NCBI GenBank assembly: GCA_951799445.1
Contig: OX637297.1
Span: 14,260,001 to 14,324,000 of the forward strand
Reading direction: 5' to 3'
Length of the DNA: 64,000 nt
Origin: Pseudisothecium myosuroides
Lineage: Eukaryota > Streptophyta > Bryopsida > Hypnales > Lembophyllaceae
Shown: positions 51,816-64,000 of the stretch, in pieces
Layout of the letters: every line of letters begins with the position of its first letter
Position numbering within the stretch: position 1 is the stretch's first letter
Position numbers and translations under genes: made by a program
The notes under the pieces: generated by a model
The model's database searches: none
The model's input: only the letters and a program-made list of their open reading frames with translations
Told to the model about the DNA's origin: nothing

Positions 51816-52417
51816 ATGGATCCATGTCCGTATATTCGTCAAGGAGCTTGGTTTAGACTTGATGTGTATTGGAAGGACGCAGGTGGACTCCTTGTTTCCT
51901 CGGTTTGTATCATTTGTTGGAGGCCGGAGGATCATTTCCAAGACAAAACACTTGGTGAAGGTTTTGTAGGTGTGACAGTCCTTGATGTTTTTGTGGGTGA
52001 CACCAAAGCCATAATGTCTCACGACAGGTGGCCAATTTCAAAGTGCTGGTTTCCCAACTGTCGTTTGTTGAAAGAGACAGTGGATCATTTTGCCTCCATT
52101 CCTGATATCGACGACCCTCTCGTTACCTCGAAGGTAGAATGAAAACACCATACTGCTTTGTAGTTTGTAAACCCAGTCTGCAATTGAAGTAATCGTAGTA
52201 CTCCCGCAAAACAACAGACGAGGAGATTTGGAAAGTCAGCTCAGAGAAGTGCTACAGACGTCTGTGTTGTCAGCATTTTAACCATGAGTTCACGCTGTTG
52301 GTAAGGCAGAAATACTATTTGAAGTCATTTGACGAGCACTGTGAATATGGGATTGGAGTGGGAGGACAACTTCACGAAAGGTACGGGGAGCGGAAGCAAA
52401 AATACGACACGCTACAG
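51816..52417 (+). pseudogene. Possible two-exon gene remnant, unknown family
   Basis: Two open stretches read like protein. The first runs from ATG at 51,816 (MDPCPYIRQGAWFRLDVYWK...) to a possible donor AAG|GTAGAA after 52,133; unspliced it ends at 52,142. The second is open from 52,199, contains EEIWKVSSEKCYRRLCCQHF, LLVRQKYYLKSFDEH and YGIGVGGQLHERYGERKQKY, and reaches a possible donor CAG|GTAGGG after 52,417. A 65-bp GT...AG intron (52,134-52,198) would join them in phase 0. This gives about 179 residues rich in Cys, Trp and charged residues. The 3' continuation was not found, because the sequence turns into the GC-rich minisatellite. I do not recognise the family. It may be the 5' end of a truncated gene or transposon ORF, or two unrelated chance frames. 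Confidence 0.35.
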
Positions 52418-52439
52418 GTAGGGTTGTCTTCCCCGACAC

Positions 52440-52607: not shown

Positions 52608-53045
52608 GGTGACTTCGGGTATAGCGTGACCATGGATGTGGGCGACCTTGAATACAGGTGACTTCGGGTAAGGGGACCGCGGGTGGGCGACTGCGGATAT
52701 GGCGACCGCGGATTCGGCGACTGCGGGTGGGAGCTTGCAGGTGGTCGACCGCGGGTAGGGACGACCTCGCCTGGAGCGACCGCGGGTGGGCAGGGTTGAC
52801 TCAAAGTCGCCCACCAGAATCCGTAGTCGCATCCAATGGACCCGAGGTCGCCTGATGAGGGACTTGCATTCGCCTACTGGGTACCCGAGGTCGCCCAAAA
52901 TCTGTACCCGAAGTCGCCTACTGGGACCGGAGGTTGCCCAGGCAGACACGGAGTCGCCTTGACTCTGTACCCGAAGTCGCCTACTAGGACCCGAGGTCGC
53001 CTAGGCGGACACGGAGTCACCTAGAATCTGTACCCAAAGTTGCCG
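52608..53045. repeat. CpG-rich minisatellite that switches orientation, upstream of the RING-H2 gene
   Basis: From 52,608 to about 52,795 a degenerate unit of about 15 bp repeats in the plus sense (GTGACTTCGGGTA, GGGACCGCGGGT, GGCGACTGCGGAT, GGCGACCGCGGAT, CGACCGCGGGTAG). From about 52,805 to 53,045 the reverse complement repeats (ACCCGAGGTCGCC, ACCCGAAGTCGCC). Part of this second half forms a 63-bp unit starting with TCTGTACCC at 52,901, 52,964 and 53,027. The tract is GC- and CpG-rich in an otherwise AT-rich region. It ends about 230 bp before the start codon at 53,275, and a related repeat lies upstream of the minus-strand paralogue. Confidence 0.85.
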
Positions 53046-53108
53046 TATGCGCGGTCACTGGAGTTGCACGTGCCTATCCAAATCTAATTCACCCGTGCTC
53101 GCCCCGCC

Positions 53109-53114
53109 TATAAG
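53109..53114 (+). promoter_or_regulatory. Candidate TATA box of the plus-strand RING-H2 gene
   Basis: CCTATAAGT lies 166 bp upstream of the start codon at 53,275, directly after the CpG-rich minisatellite. A transcription start about 30 bp further on would give a leader of about 135 nt. That leader holds one out-of-frame ATG at 53,189 whose frame runs past the main start to 53,344. There is no transcript evidence. Confidence 0.4.
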
Positions 53115-53274
53115 TTCACTCGTCCATGCCATTTCTCGCACCTTCATTCTCCTTTGAGGCTTTCGGTCTTGTATCCGTAATTGGGTGCATGCGTTACCCT
53201 CTCGTTGAATATTTATTTCTTCTTGGATTCATCCAACCCTTTGTTACCGCGAGTTCTCAACACCGACAAATCCA

Positions 53275-54651
53275 ATGGCCACCGGGGGAAGTAGCGGTGG
53301 ATCACTACCTATCCTGCACACTGCAGTTGTCACTCCTGGTGTAGCCAGGAAGGCTCTTTTAGATAAGGGGCGGATGCGCAGGGGTAATGTTCATTGCAAG
53401 CGATGGCACGTGTTGAACAGCCCAGACCACCTCGCTTTTAAAGGTTGGGAAGAGGAGACCGAGCCGTGGACAATGCAAACCTGCAAAGATTACATTGAAT
53501 GGTGCCACATCGGGAAGTTGTTTCCGGCATGGCGCCATCATTACAACCGGCGCACCAATAAGGCAAACCTAAAGTATTGTGAAAGTCCAACTTTCGTTCA
53601 AAGGTGCGTGGAAGTGTGGCAGGTCCTCTACAAAACCCCTTTCGTAGAGAGGAACGAGGTTACTCTATGCATTGCCAGAGGAGCGTATGCTGAGGTGGCA
53701 TTGAAAAAGGAGGTGGACTGGAGCACGATAAAAGAAAGTCCGTACGTCGAACGTCCAGAAATTGGATTAATCCCAAGAGGGATTCTGAAATTTCCAGACG
53801 GCGGACTTGGACCTATTCGAAGTGCTCCTCGAAACAAAGAGACTCTTGAAGTTCCCACTGACGAATCAGAGGAGGATGAAGATTCCGATGGCACACGAGT
53901 CCCAAGGACAACACGAGTCAGGGAGCAGCCCGTCGCCCCCGTGGAAGTTCAGGTTCAAAATGTTGAGGCACCTTCATCATCACGAGGACAGAGAATAAAA
54001 CATCCTCCAAAGGTGCGGCGCTCTACAAATCGAGTCAGATCTGCACTAGCCTCCGCGACGGTTTCAAGCCCACCGTTGGCAGAAGAGGATGCCATCAATG
54101 TCTTCGACTTTGGACCAAATGAGGACTTATCCATGGACGGAGGTGTTTGTACTACCATTTCCCAGCCTCGAGCGACTCCAGCTGACAACACTGTGGCCTT
54201 GTGTAAGGCCCTCGATATCTTGAAGACCAAAGACTCCACAATTGCCTCACTTCAGTCGGATGTCAGGAAATTGCAATCACTTTGCAATCACAAAAGCGCT
54301 ATCATATCTCAGCAATCTAAAGAACTACAACGCCTTCGGGAGAAAGAGCGAGAAACATTGACTTTGTCAGACATGGACGACCCCTTCATTGAGCATGATC
54401 CACATCATCTGGACAAGGTTGAAGGGGACCTCACCGACGACGTCCTTCAACAGACTCCTCCTGCCAAGTGTACCAAGCGTTCTTCACTTCTTCCAATTGC
54501 GCATCTTCCTACCATCACGGAAGACACTACCGCTGACACAAATGATCTCCGTGGGACCCAAGATTCACTTTCGTTTCCTGTTGTTCCACGCCCTGTACAG
54601 TCGGTGAAGAAATCGGGACTTGAAGAGAAAAACCGTACTCTTCGAGCGTAG
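53275..54651 (+). CDS. N-terminal part of an unrecognised RING-H2 family protein (frame interrupted by TAG)
   Basis: This is a 458-codon intronless frame. Its start codon sits in a good plant context (CCAATGGCC). Residues 35-160 form the domain shared with the minus-strand paralogue, with key motifs AFKGWEEETEPW (54-65), DYIEWCHIGKLFPAWRH (72-88), NKANLKYC (95-102), RCVEVW (110-115) and VDWSTIKE (147-154). An acidic stretch follows at 197-206 (DESEEDEDSD). A basic Ser/Thr/Pro-rich linker comes next, then a likely coiled coil at about 308-362 with Leu, Ile and Val spacing. The frame ends in TAG at 54,649-54,651, but the same frame stays open for another 371 codons. The TAG lies in a charged helical stretch (EEKNRTLRA*LGELAATYY) and would have been CAG (Gln) before a single C-to-T change. 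I infer an 830-codon ancestral gene now cut in two. The function is unknown. A sequencing error or readthrough cannot be excluded. Confidence 0.7.
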   Translation: MATGGSSGGSLPILHTAVVTPGVARKALLDKGRMRRGNVHCKRWHVLNSPDHLAFKGWEEETEPWTMQTCKDYIEWCHIGKLFPAWRHHYNRRTNKANLKYCESPTFVQRCVEVWQVLYKTPFVERNEVTLCIARGAYAEVALKKEVDWSTIKESPYVERPEIGLIPRGILKFPDGGLGPIRSAPRNKETLEVPTDESEEDEDSDGTRVPRTTRVREQPVAPVEVQVQNVEAPSSSRGQRIKHPPKVRRSTNRVRSALASATVSSPPLAEEDAINVFDFGPNEDLSMDGGVCTTISQPRATPADNTVALCKALDILKTKDSTIASLQSDVRKLQSLCNHKSAIISQQSKELQRLREKERETLTLSDMDDPFIEHDPHHLDKVEGDLTDDVLQQTPPAKCTKRSSLLPIAHLPTITEDTTADTNDLRGTQDSLSFPVVPRPVQSVKKSGLEEKNRTLRA

Positions 54652-55767
54652 TTGGGAGAGTTGGCGGCCACATACTACCATTGGAAGGTCGCCTGCATTC
54701 TCTCTATAGACAGATCACAACAAATTGCCCAAGAGTTGGATAAAGTTTTGAAGAACTTCATTGCAAGCGCTCCTAAACGGGAGAATGGACTCACATCTTG
54801 GGCATTGCTTGATACCCTTTTTCCTAGTGACATGCCCATGTTGGAGTTGCCTGGGAAGACTGTCATAGATTGGACACAAAATGGGTGGGACCACATGAAT
54901 CACAAGTCTTCCCACCTTGACGAAAAGCAACAGAAGTTGCTGTGGCTAAAGCCTGCACATTTCGTCTTGGACCACACTAAATGCCCCATATGTCTAGACC
55001 CATTTGGCCCCAAAGGAGGTTGGGCACTTGGATCCTGCGCACATGTATACCATCCTCAATGTCTCATCACGCAATGCTTGATTAGGCAACGTTGTGTCAT
55101 ATGTGCAGCGCCATTCCATAAACGGTTGTATGCCATGTTCAACTTGATGACTTACATGCCACCATCTTGGGAACACAGCGGCGACACAATGGATGAAACG
55201 AAATTTTGGGGCCAAGACTTGCTTTGGAGTTGGCGACAAGGCTTTCATGATAAAGAACCGAGAGATGTTAGCTTGCAATTGAACTGGGAAACAGACCCAG
55301 TTGAAATTGCGGCCGTTGCACCCAGGCTAATGGGAAAGGGAGCACAATATAAAGGGAAGAGGGCGTTCTTCTTCCAATGCCTTGGTGGATATTTCGATAA
55401 GAGCTCCGCAACCTTCAAGTGGGGTCCTCATCCGGAGAAGCATCGTTGGATTTTTCAAAGCGAAAGGGTGGCCAATCAGGATGAAAATGCCTCCATTCAA
55501 GAGTTGAATGATATGCAATACATGGACTCCACGTACAGGCCTTATTACCAAAGTCAAGCATTGGACTATCTATTGGAAAAACACTCTCCACAGACCCAAA
55601 AAACCCTCCTAGCTCTGAAGGATTCCAATGTCTTAGAATCCATTTTGAACGCGGATGGACCAGCTTCTCGCACTCGTGCAAAGCACAAGCTAGGGGTTGG
55701 AGAGTCATCCAATTTTGAACGTGGCGAAGGAAGCGGTTCTCAAAACGACCCAAATGTTATCAGTTAG
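54652..55767 (+). CDS. C-terminal part of the same frame, carrying a RING-H2 finger
   Basis: The frame follows the TAG at 54,649 without any shift. Its first codon is TTG, so it is probably not an independent gene. Within this 371-codon part, C111, C114, C129, H131, H134, C137, C148 and C151 give the spacing C-x2-C-x14-C-x-H-x2-H-x2-C-x10-C-x2-C. That is a complete RING-H2 zinc finger, counting as residues 570-610 of the joined frame. RING-H2 domains usually bind two zinc ions and recruit ubiquitin-conjugating enzymes, so an E3 ligase role is the natural inference. Conserved-looking segments follow (WGQDLLWSWRQGF, KGKRAFFFQCLGGYF, RPYYQSQALDYLL), then a Ser/Gly/Asn-rich tail before TAG at 55,765. 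No transmembrane segment or signal peptide was seen. The region after the RING is not a family I recognise. The intronless 2.5-kb structure suggests a retrocopy or a transposon-borne gene, but no poly(A) tract was seen. Confidence 0.68.
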   Translation: MGELAATYYHWKVACILSIDRSQQIAQELDKVLKNFIASAPKRENGLTSWALLDTLFPSDMPMLELPGKTVIDWTQNGWDHMNHKSSHLDEKQQKLLWLKPAHFVLDHTKCPICLDPFGPKGGWALGSCAHVYHPQCLITQCLIRQRCVICAAPFHKRLYAMFNLMTYMPPSWEHSGDTMDETKFWGQDLLWSWRQGFHDKEPRDVSLQLNWETDPVEIAAVAPRLMGKGAQYKGKRAFFFQCLGGYFDKSSATFKWGPHPEKHRWIFQSERVANQDENASIQELNDMQYMDSTYRPYYQSQALDYLLEKHSPQTQKTLLALKDSNVLESILNADGPASRTRAKHKLGVGESSNFERGEGSGSQNDPNVIS

Positions 55768-56500
55768 ACATTTGTTGCAATCATTTACTTGAACATCACT
55801 TCTCATTATTAGATATAATGTAAGGCTTATACATATGGGCTCATAGTATATCCATGGTCACCTAGCTAAGTAATATGTGTTGTTTTTTATTTGTTGCGTC
55901 AATTCCAGTTCTACGGCTTTGTATTGTGCTCATGCATAGCAATTATATATTGCTTGGATTTTTTAATATATACTATCCTCGCAATATTGTGAGTCAATTT
56001 TTTGCGCGAGGAATAAATGTTTGTTCTCATTTTGGGTTTTATTACTCCACTATTATATTGAAAGAAATATCCCCCAAAAATGTCTCTTCTTCTCACTTTG
56101 AAGTTGGATTTTTTTCCAAAGCTCTTACAGCATGTTAACTAATAATAAGATGTTTTTTCCATTTCGGATTGCTATTAAAAATATACTCAACTATAATGAA
56201 CTTCTAACACAAAAATAGTTGTTAGTGGGCTATAAAAAGATGTTGACCCCACCAAAAATGCAGCCGCTGAAGGGAAAAAAATTGGTGCTCTTTTTCTTAT
56301 AAAGGAAAGTTCCTACAAGGCTACAATGTCTTAAATGAAAAAAAAAAGTTTCGGTTCCCTAAAAAAAATTACTAATATAATATAGGAAAAAAATGGCTAC
56401 ACTGAACTTATTTAAATCATCCTTGTTCCTTACTTACAAAAAGAAATGGAATTTACTCGATTTCAAGGTACCCCAAAATTTGGAATATGAATATAAAAGA
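55768..56500. other. AT-rich intergenic DNA downstream of the RING-H2 gene
   Basis: No gene is supported. An 87-codon plus-strand frame at 55,875-56,138 is rich in Phe, Ile, Tyr and Cys, as AT-rich noncoding DNA would give. Poly(A) and poly(T) runs become common after 56,260. The end (about 56,400-56,570) resembles a decayed copy of the 409-bp repeat that follows. Confidence 0.6.
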
Positions 56501-58735
56501 ATAGTGATGCAATTATTTTTACGAGGGAAAATTCTGAAAACTTCTTAAATAGATTAAAAAATATTTATTATTTGCTTCAAAATATATTCAGATATACTAA
56601 TAAATAAAATCGATGCCCTTTACTTTATCCAAATGATTTTCATTTATAAATGACCGAAGGATAGAGTTCTACAAGTAGAAATCAAGAATTAAAAATACAA
56701 TGAAGGAAAAATATTGGACCTCTTCTTCTACGCAAGTTTTCTTTTAAATAAACTAATACAAATTGGGGTTCTTATTTAAAAAAAATTAAGATGTAAAGAA
56801 GAAATAAAATAAGTGCTCTTCTTCCTTTAGAAAAAAGGTTCATTCGTAACTAACCAAAGAATGGAGGCTTTCCCATAATGGAAAACATAAAATTGGAAGA
56901 ATATCAATGCAATTACTCTTCTCATTTGTAAACCTAAGTTCTCCCAATTTTTAAAAGAAATTTCAAATAATATATTATTTGCTTCAAAATGTATCCACGT
57001 ATACTAATAAACAAAATGGTTTTCAGGTTCTTTATCCTAATAATTTTAACCCCTCAAGGCCGAAGGCCTTTTTTCTGCCAAAAAACACTTAAAACTGTCA
57101 TTTGTATAGCAAGGATTCAAAAAAATTGAAAAAAAAAAAATTTGCACATTTAACGGTAGGATCCTACCTCTAACTAGTATGAGAATGTGAGGAAAAAATT
57201 TCAGAATTCTGGACCGCCCAGATTGCAAGATATATGTGTTTAAAGTGGGAAAAACAAGTATTTCAACACATTGTGGGACTAGATTTTTAAACTTTAAACA
57301 TTTTTAACTTTAAATTTTGGCACTACAAAGTTTTGAGCTTTAGATCTTTATACCAGAGAATTGAGTTGAGAGTCTAGGGAAAAAAAGAATATTCAAAATA
57401 ACTGAATTATCATTCCTAAAAAAATTATTAAATAGAAGTCAACACGAGATAGATGGAAAATCTAAAATATTCATATATTTTAGATGGAATTAAAATATAC
57501 TAATCCCAATGGTGACATTGTTCTAGCAAGTAAATTAAACCATGAGAATTTTTATTTTTTTTTAAATTGCAAAAATAGCATTCAGAAATGAATCCTACAA
57601 GTTATTTTTTTCAAGAAGATGCTCTAATTGCCCCAAAAACAAGAATGTCCCTATTAACTGTCTCATAACAAATCCAAATAAAATGAACCAAAGCTTTCCA
57701 GATAGACTAAACTATTATCTATGAAAAGAAAAATACAAAAAAACAAAATCCAATTCCTGCCAAATGTTTTTTCCTGCCCAGACTGCCCAGTTACGAAGAA
57801 AAGTCACATATTTGGCCATAACTTTTGACTCCTATTTCCAAATGTGCTGAAATTTAGTGCATATGAAAGATATTCCTTGCACCCACCTTCTATTAAAATT
57901 TCAGCTTAAAATATGGAAATCTCTAGTCACACGTACTTGCCCAAAATTCCTCTACAACCAAAAATCAGATGCTGGTCATTCAGGGGTTAATTCATAAATC
58001 ACCCAAGCATAGAGTTCTATGAGTAGAAAGCAAGAATTCAAAATACAATGAAGGAAAAAAAATCATACCTCTTCTTTTTCTAAGCAAGAGTTTTGGAAAA
58101 TAAATAGATACTAGTTCTTGTTTTTATTTTAAAGAATTTAAGATGTAGAGAAGAAATATAATAAGTGCTCTTCTTCCTTTAAAAAATAGGTTCATTTGTA
58201 ATTTACCAAAAAATGGAGGGTTTCCCATAATGAAAAACATAAAAATGGAAGAGTAGCAATACAATTACTCTTCTCATTTGTAAACCTAAGTTCTCAGAAT
58301 TTCTGGAAAAAAATGGAAATAATATATTATTTGCTTCAAAATATATACACATATACTAATAAACAAAATGAGTTCTCTTTTTTTCATCCAAATTATTTTC
58401 ATTCATGAATTACCAAAGCTTAGAGTTCTCCAAGTAGAAATCAAGAATTCAAAATATATCGGACTTCTTCTTCTTCTAAGCAAGATTTTTGATAAATAAA
58501 TAGATACAAATTCCTGTTCTTATTTTAAAAATACTTAAGATGTAAAGAAGAAATATAATAAGTGCTCTTCTTCCTTTAGAAAAAAGGTTCATTCGTAACT
58601 TACCAAAGAGGCAAAGACTGGAGGCTTTCCCATAATAAAAAACATAAAAATGGAAGAATATCAATGCGATTAGTCTTTTCATTTGTAAACCTAAGTTATC
58701 ACAATTCCATGAAAAAAAATTCGAAATGAAATATT
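56500..58735 (+). repeat. Tandem repeat of about 409 bp, three recognisable copies, one interrupted by a transposon
   Basis: The landmark TTTGCTTCAAAATAT or its variant occurs at 56,571, 56,978 and 58,330. The first spacing is 407 bp. The second is 1,352 bp, which becomes 411 bp once the 937-bp insertion and one TTAA are removed. Other landmarks recur in order: TAGAGTTCT...AGTAGAAATCAAGAAT, AAGTGCTCTTCTTCCTTT, TGGAGGCTTTCCCATAATG and CTCATTTGTAAACCTAAGTT. The third copy is partial and fades at about 58,735. A degenerate copy probably precedes 56,571. The 68-codon minus-strand frame at 58,476-58,682 lies inside the repeat and is not considered a gene. Confidence 0.85.
57050..57986. mobile_element. 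937-bp non-autonomous DNA element with TTAA target-site duplication (element E1)
   Basis: The element starts CCCCTCAAGGCCG at 57,050 and ends CATTCAGGGG at 57,986, so the ends form a short imperfect inverted repeat (CCCCTCAAGGCC against CCCCTGAATGACC). TTAA lies directly outside both ends (57,046-57,049 and 57,987-57,990). The host repeat proves insertion: removing the element and one TTAA restores ATTTTAATTCATAAATCACC, which aligns with ATTTTCATTCATGAATTACC in the next copy at about 58,396. No ORF of useful length is present. TTAA targeting with CCC-starting termini is typical of piggyBac, and TTAA duplication also of Sola3. I infer a MITE-like member of one of these groups. Confidence 0.82.
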
Positions 58736-59218
58736 TCTCAAAAATACCAAAAAAATGGATAAATTATCATGATTTTTTAAATATGGTATTCTTTTCACTG
58801 GAACAATGTAGTCGCATAACTTACCAAAATGAAGAGGGTTCTTATTTTGAAAAAAGAACCAAAATATTGGTAAGAAAATGAATTGGTATTGTTGTTCTTG
58901 TACCGAAATACATCACTATAATTGTGAACAAAAATGGATGTTATTTTAGGAAATTTGCAGGCCTCCAACAACAACTACATATAAAACGTGTATTATTCTA
59001 TACAAATAAAAATTGAACTATAATTATAAAATTATCATTCATTTTCTTGTTCCCAACCAAAAAAAGGCTCAACAATGATTTAAAAAATAGTCCAAATACA
59101 CGTGGTAAAAGAATGACAATTAGGGACTTTGGAAGGAAAAAAATGGAATTTCTTTTTCTATTCAAAGTCCATTACATCCAAAAAATGGTGCCCAAAACGT
59201 CAATTTCGTACTGAGGTC
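58736..59218. other. AT-rich intergenic DNA
   Basis: No gene, repeat copy or regulatory site could be supported. The stretch is rich in A runs and ends at the 3' side of the minus-strand pseudogene. Confidence 0.6.
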
Positions 59219-60691
59219 CTACATGCTTCTAGTATTGATCACAAAGTCGCTTCTCTTTGGCTCTGGTCCAATCCTCTCTTGTTCTACAAGGCTTGCATCC
59301 TTAGTATCTTTGCTCCACTGCAGCCATTTCCACAGAAAATGAAGTTCGCACTCCAGCAACTGAAACTCCCTATCACTTGCGTGTACCATCTCCTCGTGGA
59401 GCTTCACCAACTTTCGAAGCATTGCTAATTCTTCGGGAGTGCTACCATACTCACGAGCCATAATGAAAGGGCATAACTCCTTCGACTGTTGGACTGCAAT
59501 ATTGAAAAATTCTTTTTCTTTCTCAGCTACTTGGACGCCGATGCTTTTCCTTTGATGTTACAGCTGCCCACACTTGCATTCCAAGAGTTGGAGTTGCCTT
59601 TGATATACTGCTACATCATCCATCATGTGAGCGCGGCCCTCCTCTCTCTTCTTGAAATAATTATCTTTACTTTTCTTCAAATCAGCCAAGTACTTGTCAT
59701 TTTCAACAATGGCTTTCTTTACCGCCTCAGACTCCGTCCGCAAAGATGACACAAGACCCTCGTCCAATTCTGGTGAAGCTTCATTTTTCTTCAAGTCTTC
59801 CCATTCCATTCTGGCTTCAAGCAAAGCTTCTCGTGCACTTGCTATCGTAGCACTCAACATATCTTCATCGTCTGAAGAATCGTCCTTGTTCAAACCGCCA
59901 CCGTGCTCTAAGAATATGTGGTCCACGCGCTTGGGCTCCACATCCTCCCTGCACTGTTCATGTTTGTGGAACAGTGTTTCGGGCTCCTCAACCTTCTTCT
60001 TTCCCTACTGGTCAGCCGTCGCCTTCGAGGCTGACTTATAAAAATCCATGAGAGCGAGTGCTTCTAGGTCTTCATTGAACTCATACTCATCGTATTCATG
60101 GGTGCGCTCATCTGAGCTAGAAGCAGTTGACCACACTACCTCTTCATCGGGAATGCACAACTTCCCTGGTTTAACCAATGTCAACTTCTTCTCAACATCA
60201 ACTTGTTCATCTTCAACCAACAGTGTTGCGTCCTCTGGATGGTCTCCAATAGGCAACTCCTTTATGGTTGTCCAATCCACCCGCTTCAGAAGTATACATT
60301 TGGTATACACCATTTGGACAAGATACAAAGGAAAACTGTCGTTTCGATACGGCTGCTCCTCTAGATACAACTCCCTCCATACCTCAAGGCATCTCTTCTT
60401 GAAGTCTTCATTTTTGCAATATCCAAGATTTGCCTTGTTAGACTCCACGTGCAGCTTGTGTCACCAGAGCGGAAACAACTTGTTGATGTGGCACCAATCC
60501 ACATATTTTTTAACTATTTCATAGCTCCAAGGCTCAGGTTCCTCCTTCCAACCCAAGAAAGCCTTATTGTGTGGATGCAAAAGGATAGGCACACGCTTCT
60601 TGTGAGTTTTTCCAGTCCTCTTCCGTGGCATGTCACGATGTGCCTTCTTCTGTTGCCGAGTCAATGGCTTTGGTTGGGCCTCATCCTCCAT
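59219..60691 (-). pseudogene. Paralogue of the RING-H2 gene's N-terminal half, with three in-frame stops
   Basis: One reading frame runs from ATG at 60,691 to TAA/TAG-type termination at 59,219 (491 codons) with no frameshift. It has in-frame stops at codon 77 (TGA, 60,461-60,463), codon 229 (TAG, 60,005-60,007) and codon 378 (TAA, 59,558-59,560). The N-terminal domain aligns without gaps to the plus-strand gene: AFLGWKEEPEPW, KYVDWCHINKLFPLW, NKANLGYC, KKRCLEVWRELY, VDWTTIKELP. The TGA falls where the paralogue has Arg (PAW-R-HH against PLW-*-HK), as a CGA-to-TGA change would give. After TAG the frame goes on with acidic and then long coiled-coil sequence (DSSDDEDM; EALLEARMEWEDLKK; SLRTESEAVKKAIVEN). 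The RING and C-terminal region are absent. It lies tail to tail with the plus-strand gene. I read it as a recently inactivated gene. Short introns over the stops are a less likely alternative. Confidence 0.75.
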
Positions 60692-61017
60692 GATGATCAC
60701 TTTGTATGTGGACAATGAGTCTAGGTACTAAGTTTAATATTCTAACACTAAACTTGTACTACACGAGCGTGAAAATCCTAAACTCGTGGTATATCACATT
60801 TACAAAAAACATACATTTACAAATATATACTCAATTTACAATATCCAAATGTCAAGCCGCCAACAATCCGGTGCACGGAACGAAAGCCACAAAAATGAGG
60901 TGGAGAGACACAAAATGTCCCCCTCACAACTCTAACCCCTAGTCCACGAGCACGTAGTCACCCACTTCAAGGTGGATGAAAGACGGTGCGCAGGGCTTGG
61001 AGTGGAGAACGCGGGTG
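60692..61017 (-). promoter_or_regulatory. Upstream region of the minus-strand paralogue, candidate TATA box
   Basis: Read on the minus strand, GTATATATTT (60,821-60,830) lies about 130 bp upstream of the ATG at 60,691. The plus-strand gene has its TATA box at a comparable distance (166 bp). The rest of the interval shows no gene. Its outer part grades into the GC-rich minisatellite. Promoter activity is inferred only from position. Confidence 0.3.
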
Positions 61018-61312
61018 CAGGAGACCGCTCATATACCCGAGGTCTCGTGGGGGCGAGTGTGGGTCTGGGCGACTTTGGAAGAGGCGACCTCGCATAAGGG
61101 GCGACCTCGGGTCCACAGAGAACGCGAGTCCAGGAACCACGACCGCCGGAGGGGATTTCAGCGACCGCGCGTGGAAACTTGGGCGACATCGTGTGGCAAC
61201 TAAGGCGAACTCGGGTCTTAGGCGACCTCGCGTTATGGATCCCGGACGACCGCGGGTACTGGGCGACCTCGGGTACTGGCTTCCACGGCGACCGCGCGTC
61301 CAGCTCCACTAG
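61018..61312 (-). repeat. CpG-rich GGCGACCTCGGGT minisatellite upstream of the minus-strand paralogue
   Basis: On the plus strand GGCGACCTCGCAT, GGCGACCTCGGGT, GCGACCGCGCGT, GGCGAACTCGGGT, GGCGACCTCGCGT, CGACCGCGGGTACTGG and GGCGACCTCGGGTACTGG recur at irregular spacing. Read in the direction of the minus-strand gene these become ACCCGAGGTCGCC, the orientation of the gene-proximal half of the tract upstream of the plus-strand gene. The GGGTACTGG extension also matches the other tract (CCTACTGGGTACCCGAGG at 52,873). The tract ends about 330 bp from the start codon. Overlapping frames of 66 to 125 codons on both strands (60,932-61,379) are products of the repeat, not genes. Confidence 0.85.
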
Positions 61313-61974
61313 TATCGCATCTCCTGGAAAAGACTGTCCACATTTTCGGAAATTTGCTTTAGGTGGGTGTGAACCCTAAAGCTTTGGCCTCTTCTTATGA
61401 AATTCTAAAAAGCCAATACATAATATTGGTGGTCTAAGCTTGGGAAATAGGAGGCTCACATGTTTAGAACAGTCCAATAGAAGATCGTACGGTTACATAT
61501 GTACAACATACATTTCGTAACGTTTTGCTATTTGAAATAGACATACCATTTTTTAGTGGCTTTTTATGTTTGTGTTCAAACCCGGCGGCCTTACAAATTG
61601 AACACTTTTGTAAACATTTTTTATAAAATTTTGGTGTGGTTTTCTAGAGTTATTTATACATAAAAAGCTTTTAGTCATTCCATTTCGATGAATGAATCAA
61701 AAGTTATGAGGGTTTTGAGTTAGTGAACAGTTTTGGATTCTCTAACTTCAAATGAACTTTGCAGTCCTCTAAATTACTGAATTTCCAATATTTTTCTTAG
61801 AAAAATAAATCATAGGATGTAGATTATTCATTACAATATGACTACCATTGAATTTGGCATATTTCAATTCCATAATCAAATTCTCTGCAATTTAGTATTT
61901 AGAATCATTTTCTACTTCTTTCCATATGAAATTATTTTCCAATATGTTCTACAACTCCAAATGATTTGAACAGA
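61313..61974. other. AT-rich intergenic DNA with a small hairpin
   Basis: No gene is supported. GCTTTAGG (61,356-61,363) and CCTAAAGC (61,375-61,382) can pair as an 8-bp stem with an 11-base loop. The rest is AT-rich with no repeat that I recognise. Confidence 0.55.
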
Positions 61975-61978
61975 TTAA

Positions 61979-62814
61979 CCCCAAAAGGTTTTTGACTATG
62001 TTTTCACCAAAACCGCTCCAAAATTGCCATTTCAAATACAAGTACCAAATTTTAGAAAAAAAAAAATTTGAACAAACATAACCGTAGGATCTCGTAATAT
62101 ATCAGTTAAAAAAGATGTGGAAAAAATTTCATAATTTTCCACCATGTACATTGTAAGATATTATTGTTTGAATTGAAAAAAAATCCTTTTTTTGTCCCTG
62201 CCTGGAAGAAAACAGGCAGTTGCCCTTCTGATTGTACAACATATAGGGAAAAAATAGTAAGTAGAAAGAGGTAGAGAATGACTCAAAATACTAAATTGTA
62301 AAGAGTTTTGTTATGGAATTGAAAAATGCCAATCCCATCGGTTGTAATGTTGTAATAAACAATCTACACCCAATTTTTTTATTTTCTTTCTAAAATATTA
62401 GAAATTCAGTTCCATACATGACTTCAAAGTTTATTTTAGAATACAGATTCCTTAACTACCCTCAAACTAAAACTACTCTTCACTTTTGACTCATTCATCC
62501 AAATGGAATGATTCAAAGCTTCCCATACATATATAAATTTATACAAGCAATTTCAAATTTCGGGAATCCAAAAAAGGGATTTTCCAAGACTTTTTCGTGG
62601 TTGCCCGCTAATTGTGGAAAATGACATATCATGCAATAATTTTTTACCCATGTACTAAGAAGTTATGAATATTGTTGGGCCTTGAATCTACACTTGAGAC
62701 ACATCTTCTTTGAAAATTTCAAAGTGGCTTAATAAAAAGCCCATTTGTAGTGAACTGCTCTAAATCGCTATGTTGCCAAAAAATGGTGTTTCGTCCTTTA
62801 GGCATTAACCCCTA
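61979..62814. mobile_element. 836-bp TTAA-flanked element of the same family as E1 (element E2)
   Basis: TTAA at 61,975-61,978 is followed by CCCCAAAAGGTTTTTGAC, and the right end (CGTCCTTTAGGCA) is followed by TTAA at 62,815-62,818. Internal sequence lines up with E1 over its length. Examples are an A run then ATTTGAACAAACATAACCGTAGGATC (E1: ATTTGCACATTTAACGGTAGGATC), GTGGAAAAAATTTCATAATTTTC (E1: GAGGAAAAAATTTCAGAATTCTG), and TGCCC...GGAAAATGACATAT near the right end (E1: TGCCC...GAAAAGTCACATAT). The right terminus has decayed from AGGGG to AGGCA, so this copy is probably older than E1. No ORF was found. Confidence 0.7.
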
Positions 62815-62818
62815 AATG

Positions 62819-63453
62819 CCCAAGGCCGTTTCTAAACTTCTAGGAATTTGCTTTTAATTGAACAAGAAGCCAACATTTTGTTAAGTTCTATCAATTTTTA
62901 ATGATTTCTAAGTTTGTAACCGTACAAATTCAAACTAGACATATTAGAGGCCACATACAAAAAGAAAACACAAGAACATCACTTATAAATTGAAAGACTA
63001 TAATGTTCAAATATGAGGGTGTTCAAATTGTGAAAGTGACTTGAAGTCTTTCAATCCTCTTTTCACATGCCAAATCTAAGAAGTTGGTCATCAAAAGAAT
63101 ATGACCTAACATGCATAACCCCAATCAATTTACGGTTTCTCAAAATCTACTCTACAATTTTTGAAAATGAATTTTTAAGGTCATTTTTCCTCCAAGATCT
63201 AGTGTATTCAGGGCTCATTTCCAAGAGCCCTCAACACTACAGGAAGTGAAGATTGCAATGGGTACCTTTGCACAAAATCTTGAATAGAAAATTCATAATC
63301 CATCATTTTCAAGATCGGACTTTTGATGCTAAAATTAGACTTGAAAAAGAATATTTCAAAAATATAAATTATTAAAAATAGCAACTTTGTTAGGTTTTAG
63401 GGTACTTCAACGTTTTGTTGACACCAAAATTTGGTGCCTCGGGAATTTAGGGG
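62819..63453. mobile_element. 635-bp element with 18-bp terminal inverted repeats and TTAA flanks (element E3)
   Basis: The left end CCCCTAAATGCCCAAGGC (62,819) and the reverse complement of the right end, CCCCTAAATTCCCGAGGC (ending at 63,453), match at 16 of 18 positions. TTAA flanks both sides (62,815-62,818 and 63,454-63,457). The left end also shares CCAAGGCCG with the start of E1, but the interior does not clearly match E1 or E2. It is non-coding: the 60-codon frame at 63,067-63,249 lies inside the element and shows no motif. The left TTAA is shared with E2. Confidence 0.82.
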
Positions 63454-63457
63454 TTAA

Positions 63458-64000
63458 AGCATGTAGCAAACTTTTGTTTGAAAAAAGGGCAAACAGAGCA
63501 CTACCATTTTAGCCATTTTCCCATCATAGACGATTGAGCTGCTGCAGTGCAGCTGCCTTACTTTGCGTAGGGCCAAAAAAGTAAACAAAATGGATTTGAA
63601 TGCTTCTCTTTCAATCCACACGGTGGAAATTCTTGAAATGCTGACCTAATATTTTCAACACAATGTACGGAAAGATCCAACGGTCCCATGTGTAAAAAAA
63701 AAGTTTTGTTCCAAATATTTCGTACTTGTATCAGAAATGGCATTTTCAAAGCGTTTTCAATGAAAACAAAGTCATGGAACTTTAGAGGTTCAGGTTCTTA
63801 TTTGACTCCTTTTATCCACCTCTTATTTCAAGGGCCACTTTCTAAAGTCAAAGATATATTTCTTCAAGTAAGAAGTATCCAGACCTTGTAAACTACATCA
63901 TCTTTGCAAATGAAAATCTTTATATCATACACGATACAAATGCTCTAGAACGATTACAACAATTTTACTAAAAAATTAATAGATACATAATAGCATTTCC
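63458..64000. other. AT-rich DNA to the window edge
   Basis: No gene or repeat is supported. Two overlapping short frames (63,558-63,749 minus, 63,688-63,891 plus) have no recognisable motif. AGCTGC and GCAGCT around 63,540-63,555 form a small hairpin. Confidence 0.5.

Follow-up and report, generated by a model that had tools for sequence, protein, structure and literature searches.

The 64,000-nucleotide stretch of Pseudisothecium myosuroides DNA analysed here (the window; positions 14260001-14324000 of contig OX637297.1, hereafter C11) carries the left third of a giant transposon of the hAT superfamily, which occurs in dozens of dispersed, mostly decayed copies. The element encodes at least five genes: A, which has a RING finger, B and E, which share with A a domain that we term the N domain, the kinase-like gene C, and D, a hAT transposase. 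Each of the five has, upstream, an array of a 13-bp motif, ACCCGAGGTCGCC, directed towards the gene, and further arrays just inside both ends of the element point outwards. From this arrangement we infer that we are probably dealing with a giant hAT element of at least five genes that reads the motif itself. Unless stated otherwise, counts of copies refer to the source genome of 388 Mb (387.9 Mb) in 222 contigs.

The element extends from window position 52419 to C11:14347433, beyond the edge of the window, and comprises 35,015 bp. Its 3' end reads ...GACAACCCTG and is followed directly by GCTACAGG. The two termini of the window copy agree at 17 of the first 21 and at 11 of the first 12 bases; at the 5' end, the first base is T instead of the C of the CAGGG-type start. 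Such a CAGGG start is typical of hAT terminal inverted repeats. In most copies homology begins abruptly at a common point, which in the window copy lies 854 bp before the ATG of gene A, and the flanks are unrelated. Target-site duplications around the copies, which a first-pass annotation of the sequence had suggested looking for, were indeed found: among ten copies read at both ends, the 8-bp duplication is perfect in seven (window copy included), matches at 7/8 positions in one and at 6/8 in another. According to their coordinates, the nine copies with duplications matching at 6/8 or more positions span ~27-48 kb; other end pairs, which were not read or are without a matching duplication, span ~24-80 kb. 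The window copy contains extra stretches of 5.5 kb and 0.85 kb relative to copy c11 and an extra 2.97-kb insertion relative to copy c14; with these subtracted, its length is ~26 kb, near that of the shortest copies. Co-linearity with the window, at ~93-96%, extends in three copies (two on C6, one on C10) from gene A over the AT-rich interval and gene B to array B, as far as ~63,400. A further copy on C11, L042, carries a 3.5-kb insertion, and there the comparison reaches only into gene B. The first-pass annotation had offered the 8.7-kb interval between the outer edges of arrays A and B as a candidate mobile unit. Mobility holds for the transposon of ~27-48 kb; the interval itself was rejected as the unit, as no inverted termini or duplications were found at its ends, copies are co-linear past both of them, and array B is internal rather than terminal.

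Gene A has 95 matches in the source genome. The 30 best loci show 83-100% identity, and 27 of them have stops in the matched part; the other matches either are fragmentary members of that class or come from diverged copies (44-67%), and open frames of gene A are few. Whether other family copies carry the array upstream could likewise be answered: at least four upstream motif units are present at 27 of the 30 best loci, in all 27 with minus units followed by plus units. The three exceptions (L026, L027 and L032) are without the array because their upstream region is lost, with homology to locus L009 starting at +43, -207 and -218 from the ATG. As a side observation, the element is strongly enriched on C11: with 16.9 of 387.9 Mb (4.4% of the genome), this contig holds 16 of the 30 best gene A loci and 22 of the 41 3'-end matches. 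C11 is possibly a sex chromosome, or recombines little for some other reason.

Gene D identifies the superfamily. Its product matches DUF659 (E 9.6e-32, 110 bits) and Dimer_Tnp_hAT (28.8 bits against a cut-off of 21.4), both above the curated cut-offs; at its N terminus, a Cys/His pattern was noticed by eye in copy c11, and no Pfam match to a BED zinc finger was obtained at E 0.1. Three marks of a hAT element are present: 8-bp duplications, short terminal inverted repeats starting CAGGG, and a transposase with dimerisation domain and DUF659. Gene D matches were found downstream of gene A, on the same strand and within 90 kb, at 23 of 30 loci in the 83-100% class of gene A, at 5 of 10 in the 58-61% class and at 7 of 18 in the 46-55% class, compared with 1, 0 and 2 on the opposite strand; these counts are lower bounds, as the genome searches score the best candidates only. 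The identity of gene D drops in step with the gene A class, from 86-95% through 62-66% to 40-43% (six of the seven in the last class). In six pairs of the 46-55% class, with gene D at 40-43%, A and D are no more than 8-17 kb apart, pointing to smaller elements. In the 58-61% class, a gene E match of 41% lies between A and D in every one of the five linked pairs (coordinates, by eye). With E at ~41% where A stands at 58-61% and D at 62-66%, gene E diverges faster than A or D. Separately, twelve hAT transposase frames 43% like gene D and stop-free in the match were observed on C1, C2, C3, C4, C6 and C7. Nine of the twelve are open frames of 1,063-1,076 residues, and none has a typed gene A as same-strand partner within 90 kb; they may represent a hAT group of their own that is young and possibly active.

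The other genes of the element were characterized by Pfam scans and alignments. The RING finger of gene A scores 27.4 bits for PF17123 in the window copy (cut-off 27), and in the gene A relatives scanned the RING scores stay below the Pfam cut-offs. Among the proteins read, nine full-length gene A relatives are uninterrupted, with 777-896 residues comprising N domain, coiled coil and RING region. Uninterrupted relatives of gene B (P0027-P0031) have 488-499 residues with N domain and coiled coil; no RING was found in the gene B relatives scanned with Pfam. Two pieces of B align with residues 25-86 and 88-162 of A, with identities of 50% and 42%. Together with the motif scan, this alignment bears out the first-pass description of two homologous frames that face each other, each with a GC-rich repeat upstream. 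Gene E, beyond the window, is a third N-domain paralogue, as a genome search with it recovers the gene A of the window (40% identity, E 2.7e-30), and gene C is protein-kinase-like (Pkinase, 36.9 bits against a cut-off of 31.7). A comparison of the RING half of gene A with bacterial and viral contigs did not find relatives.

Within the window, 31 sites match the 13-bp motif with at most three mismatches, where 2.2 are expected, and none of 100 shuffles reached 31. All 31 are confined to 52608-53103 or 61004-61299. The repeat had been thought specific to these two loci, which holds as far as all sites fall in the two arrays; for the window this says little, since positions 1-51445, four fifths of its length, are a 177-bp satellite in ~287 copies. 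Across 43 near-perfect units in the window copy, every position of the 13-bp motif, which includes two CpGs, is conserved in 36-43, and flanking bases in at most 24 of 43. Units are mostly spaced at ~15 bp in the outer half of array A, at 20 or 23 bp in its inner half and at 17 or 22-25 bp in array B; all three stretches also contain larger gaps, and the spacers differ. The upstream repeat of the first-pass annotation is therefore real, and its reading as a simple tandem minisatellite was rejected: it is an array of a 13-bp motif with uneven spacing, and conservation is limited to the 13 bp. Sharp conservation with free flanks is the look of putative binding sites. A TATA-like CCTATAAG follows the inner half of array A at ~53107 (by eye).

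The orientation of the units follows the genes. Counting units with at most two mismatches in the window copy, those directed towards the gene make up 7/7 in the inner half of array A, 8/9 in array B, 5/5 upstream of C, 12/12 upstream of E and 10/11 upstream of D, and those pointing outwards make up 7/7 in the outer half of array A and 8/8 in the array just inside the 3' end. Upstream of gene E, the window copy has an additional array of 12 units plus a pair of units in the same direction as the gene. Copy c14 has 13/14 gene-directed units in its D array and 9/9 outward units in its 3' array, copy c16 has 12/12 in the E array and 16/17 in the D array directed towards the gene, and in copy c11 the arrays of A, B, C, E and D are oriented as in the window copy; wherever the C10 and C6 copies were read, the directions are again the same. 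As neighbouring units are not independent, the weight of this evidence lies on the agreement of five out of five genes and on the recurrence across copies. The earlier claim that the repeat reads alike in gene direction at both loci accordingly stands for the proximal half of array A and for array B, and fails for the outer half of array A with its minus orientation. As a further observation, tandem units of 1.7-2.3 kb, each consisting of a motif array and a 78-bp minisatellite, lie upstream of gene E in L043, L044 and copy c11 (at ~15.6-20.3 kb of the element), and their number varies between copies. In L043, AACCCT strings spaced 7 bases apart, telomere-like CCCTAAA repeats, stand beside motif arrays.

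Features of the window copy of the element, in window coordinates
Feature	Position	Strand	Description
Target-site duplication, left copy	52411..52418	.	8-bp GCTACAGG; exact right copy directly after element 3' end C11:14347433
5' terminal inverted repeat	52419..52430	+	TAGGGTTGTCTT in window copy; CAGGGTTGTCTT in most copies
Array A, outer half	52608..52787	-	10 units of ACCCGAGGTCGCC (at most 3 mismatches), towards 5' end, subterminal
Array A, inner half	52799..53103	+	10 units (at most 3 mismatches), towards gene A, promoter-proximal
Gene A	53275..55767	+	N domain, coiled coil, RING finger; 830 codons, one in-frame TAG at 54649-54651
AT-rich interval inside element	55768..59160	.	internal direct repeats; co-linear in other copies
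Gene B	59222..60691	-	N domain and coiled coil, no RING; ~490 codons with in-frame stops
Array B	61004..61299	-	10 of 11 units (at most 3 mismatches) towards gene B; 313 bp upstream of gene B ATG
Element interior	61300..64000	.	runs past window edge to genes C, E, D and 3' subterminal array

Genome-wide, the exact 13-mer ACCCGAGGTCGCC occurs 747 times, compared with 5 occurrences of a reversed-letter control. Positions were compared for the first 100 of the 747 places, all on C1-C4. Among the 100 places listed, 62 have a listed gene A, gene D or 3' end within 50 kb, in zones that make up 1.6% of contigs C1-C4, and another 2 have a gene E match on C4 within that distance (by eye). The motif is linked to the genes of the element strongly, not exclusively. 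Literature searches with the letters of the motif and of the satellite gave no match. A motif pair matched eight bacterial records, by their titles unrelated, and had no match in viral contigs.

The upstream regions of 12 diverged gene A copies were compared. All six of the 58-61% class have the terminus CAGGGTTGT[CT]TTCCC[CT]GACCTGTC and a two-halved array of units of a variant motif. L059 (50%) has a related terminus, CAGGGTTTTCTG, and mostly ACCGNCGGTCGCC-like units in the less clean order -+-++++++++. L060-L064 (48-51%) have at most one motif match each (0.1-0.6 expected) and no such terminus. Different GC-rich arrays lie within ~330 bp upstream in these five copies: L061 (with only 1.9 copies), L062 and L064 share a 21-bp unit around CCCGTTCCCGTCCCCGCCC, and L060 and L063 a ~22-bp unit around GTCCACGCCCGGACC. 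Four of the five (L061-L064) have a gene D match downstream. Diverged copies thus keep a GC-rich array near the start of the gene, and its sequence changes with the lineage. This qualifies the proposal that a promoter module travels with the gene family: it describes 27 of the 30 best loci and does not extend to five of the six most distant copies tested, which are family members without the motif, yet with another GC-rich array similarly placed. Such a change of motif with lineage is in line with a reader provided by the element itself.

The copies also bear traces of decay. In 18 ungapped gene A copies, C>T and G>A changes make up 640 of the 921 departures from the majority base, and 305 of these 640 hit one of the 79 CpGs. 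Decay of this kind at CpG is the usual trace of DNA methylation.

Three other accounts of the motif and its element were weighed. Dispersal of an ordinary gene family through segmental duplication, without any transposon, would suit the many copies, several of them with open frames; it is contradicted by the perfect 8-bp duplications in seven of ten copies and by the common sharp ends, the terminal inverted repeats and the linked hAT transposase, and we consider it scarcely credible. That gene D is a smaller hAT element nested in a different large one is also very improbable, frequent as nested insertions are in these copies: copies from three chromosomes all have D at a corresponding position, an array of the element's motif lies upstream of it, the outer ends predict the superfamily to which D belongs, and D remains linked to gene A even in lineages that are only 40-43% alike in D. 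An array that is a now functionless by-product of a promoter segment, duplicated with each gene inside the element, would leave the transposon intact and remove the meaning of the motif. The promoters of the paralogous genes A, B and E could have been co-copied in this way, and the array-bearing units of ~1.7-2.3 kb are in fact tandemly repeated upstream of gene E. However, C and D, which are not paralogues of A, carry the array as well, and the 13 bp stay conserved where spacers and flanks diverge, so that we regard this as improbable.

A further alternative is that host proteins, either a transcription factor or the silencing machinery, bind the arrays and that the element has no cognate binder. 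CpG-rich repeats in a decaying, apparently methylated element would suit silencing, and the listed motif places away from listed element genes (36 of 100) would suit a host motif. By contrast, outward arrays at both ends fit binding by a transposase better, and the motif differs between lineages that share the host factors of a single genome. We therefore judge host binding unlikely, though of all four alternatives it is the one that deserves the most attention. The giant hAT element with a self-read motif is still the reading that we prefer.

Several observations weigh against that preferred reading. The transposase of the window copy is disrupted by stops and by the 2.97-kb insertion, and in L035, one of the ten copies read at both ends, the duplication matches at only 3/8 positions. 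The dN/dS of the young gene A family is 0.53, compared with 0.55 and 0.68 for shifted frames, so the test for purifying selection was negative and the gene A copies look like decaying remains. The N domain gave neither a Pfam match above cut-off nor a usable fold match, which makes DNA binding by it a guess: for the model of P0008 (mean pLDDT, the model's confidence score, of 54) there was no match at E 0.001 or better in the Protein Data Bank (PDB) or among viral models, and for P0027 (pLDDT 67) the rows of a second fold search cover nearly only the coiled coil and barely probe the N domain. The joint change of motif and proteins follows from common descent anyway and is no proof of binding. 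Finally, occurrence of the motif away from the genes had been named in the first-pass annotation as evidence against a link. In part it is found: set against the 62 near places, 36 of the 100 listed have no listed gene A, D, E or 3' end within 50 kb. They fall in 13 clusters or single sites, for example the clusters at C3:13845063-13848927 and C2:7161057-7168609, and may be deleted derivatives, other elements or something else. Deleted derivatives are common among hAT elements.

If the element does read its own motif, ACCCGAGGTCGCC would be the recognition site of an element-encoded protein, either the transposase or an N-domain protein. Units at the ends of the element would bring the transposition complex together, and through those at the promoters the genes of the element would be switched as one regulon, probably by keeping open or re-opening methylated CpG-rich promoters. 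The arrays would expand and contract in the manner of tandem repeats, and their change alongside the proteins would insulate related elements from each other. The fastest divergence, that of gene E, makes E the first candidate for the reader, as expected of a binder with a changing target. More tentatively, with somewhat less than an even chance in our estimate, the N-domain paralogues A, B and E may form a new DNA-binding family of which one, most likely E, reads the motif, with motif and reader changing together. The resulting self-encoded, sequence-specific regulon or anti-silencing system would then have arisen independently of VANC, an Arabidopsis transposon protein discussed below, and the RING ligase and the kinase would serve as effectors against host silencing.

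Two known systems each resemble one half of this layout. The Ac transposase of maize binds repeated hexamers (AAACGG) within the terminal 200 bp of Ac, an element of 4.6 kb with one transcript (PMC3260210). Like Ac/Ds, the present element has 8-bp duplications, short terminal inverted repeats, a hAT transposase and many subterminal copies of a short motif (PMC3260210); it differs in its length of ~27-48 kb, its at least five genes, and a 13-bp motif that is also found upstream of each gene. In Arabidopsis, it is reported that VANC of VANDAL21 binds a nine-base motif, which forms one-orientation arrays in noncoding regions and evolves by tandem repeats (PMC5735166), and that VANC action brings loss of methylation (PMC5735166; PMC10398659). 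VANDAL elements and the present one are both multi-gene transposons with dense one-orientation motif arrays in noncoding regions, differing between related families or lineages. The transposase superfamily sets them apart, as gene D is of the hAT type with 8-bp duplications, and the N domain matches no Pfam family. VANDALs are Mutator-like. By analogy, the present element would join both layouts, with Ac-like outward arrays at the ends and VANDAL-like arrays directed at the genes.

Two more distant comparisons can be drawn. En/Spm is a CACTA element with one promoter, and its TnpA acts on methylated ends. It shares with our element a subterminal repeated motif that occurs in both orientations and overlaps the promoter, and differs from it by other ends and duplications and by having one promoter only. 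The fungal Starship giants are similar in being very large and carrying several genes; they are classified by a tyrosine recombinase, whereas the recombination gene found here is a hAT transposase, tyrosine recombinases not having been sought.

Some structures inside and next to the window copy were observed in passing. An inverted repeat within the element (window 61626-61954 and 62232-62560) has 329-nt arms that are 73% complementary. Small insertions with TTAACCCCT-like and AGGGGTTAA-like ends occur at window positions 57045-57990 and 62804-63458 and at ~3772-4625 of L047; they resemble small non-autonomous DNA elements nested within the giant one. The insertion point lies ~1 kb past the edge of the 177-bp satellite and is adjoined by gene remnants (window 51816-52430), namely an open frame of 108 aa and a second open stretch that reaches the start of the element. 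Joining the flanks of the insertion site extends the left reading frame by just 9 codons, which is uninformative.

To our knowledge, hAT elements are a few kb in length and carry one gene, and a search of open-licence papers found no counterpart of a giant multi-gene hAT. A hAT element that measures 27-48 kb and places at least five genes under a common cis-motif would extend the range of the superfamily. As lineages with different motifs and related proteins reside in one genome, they form a natural experiment on the joint change of a transposon and its binding sites, and the same lineages bear on whether self-regulation against DNA methylation evolved more than once.

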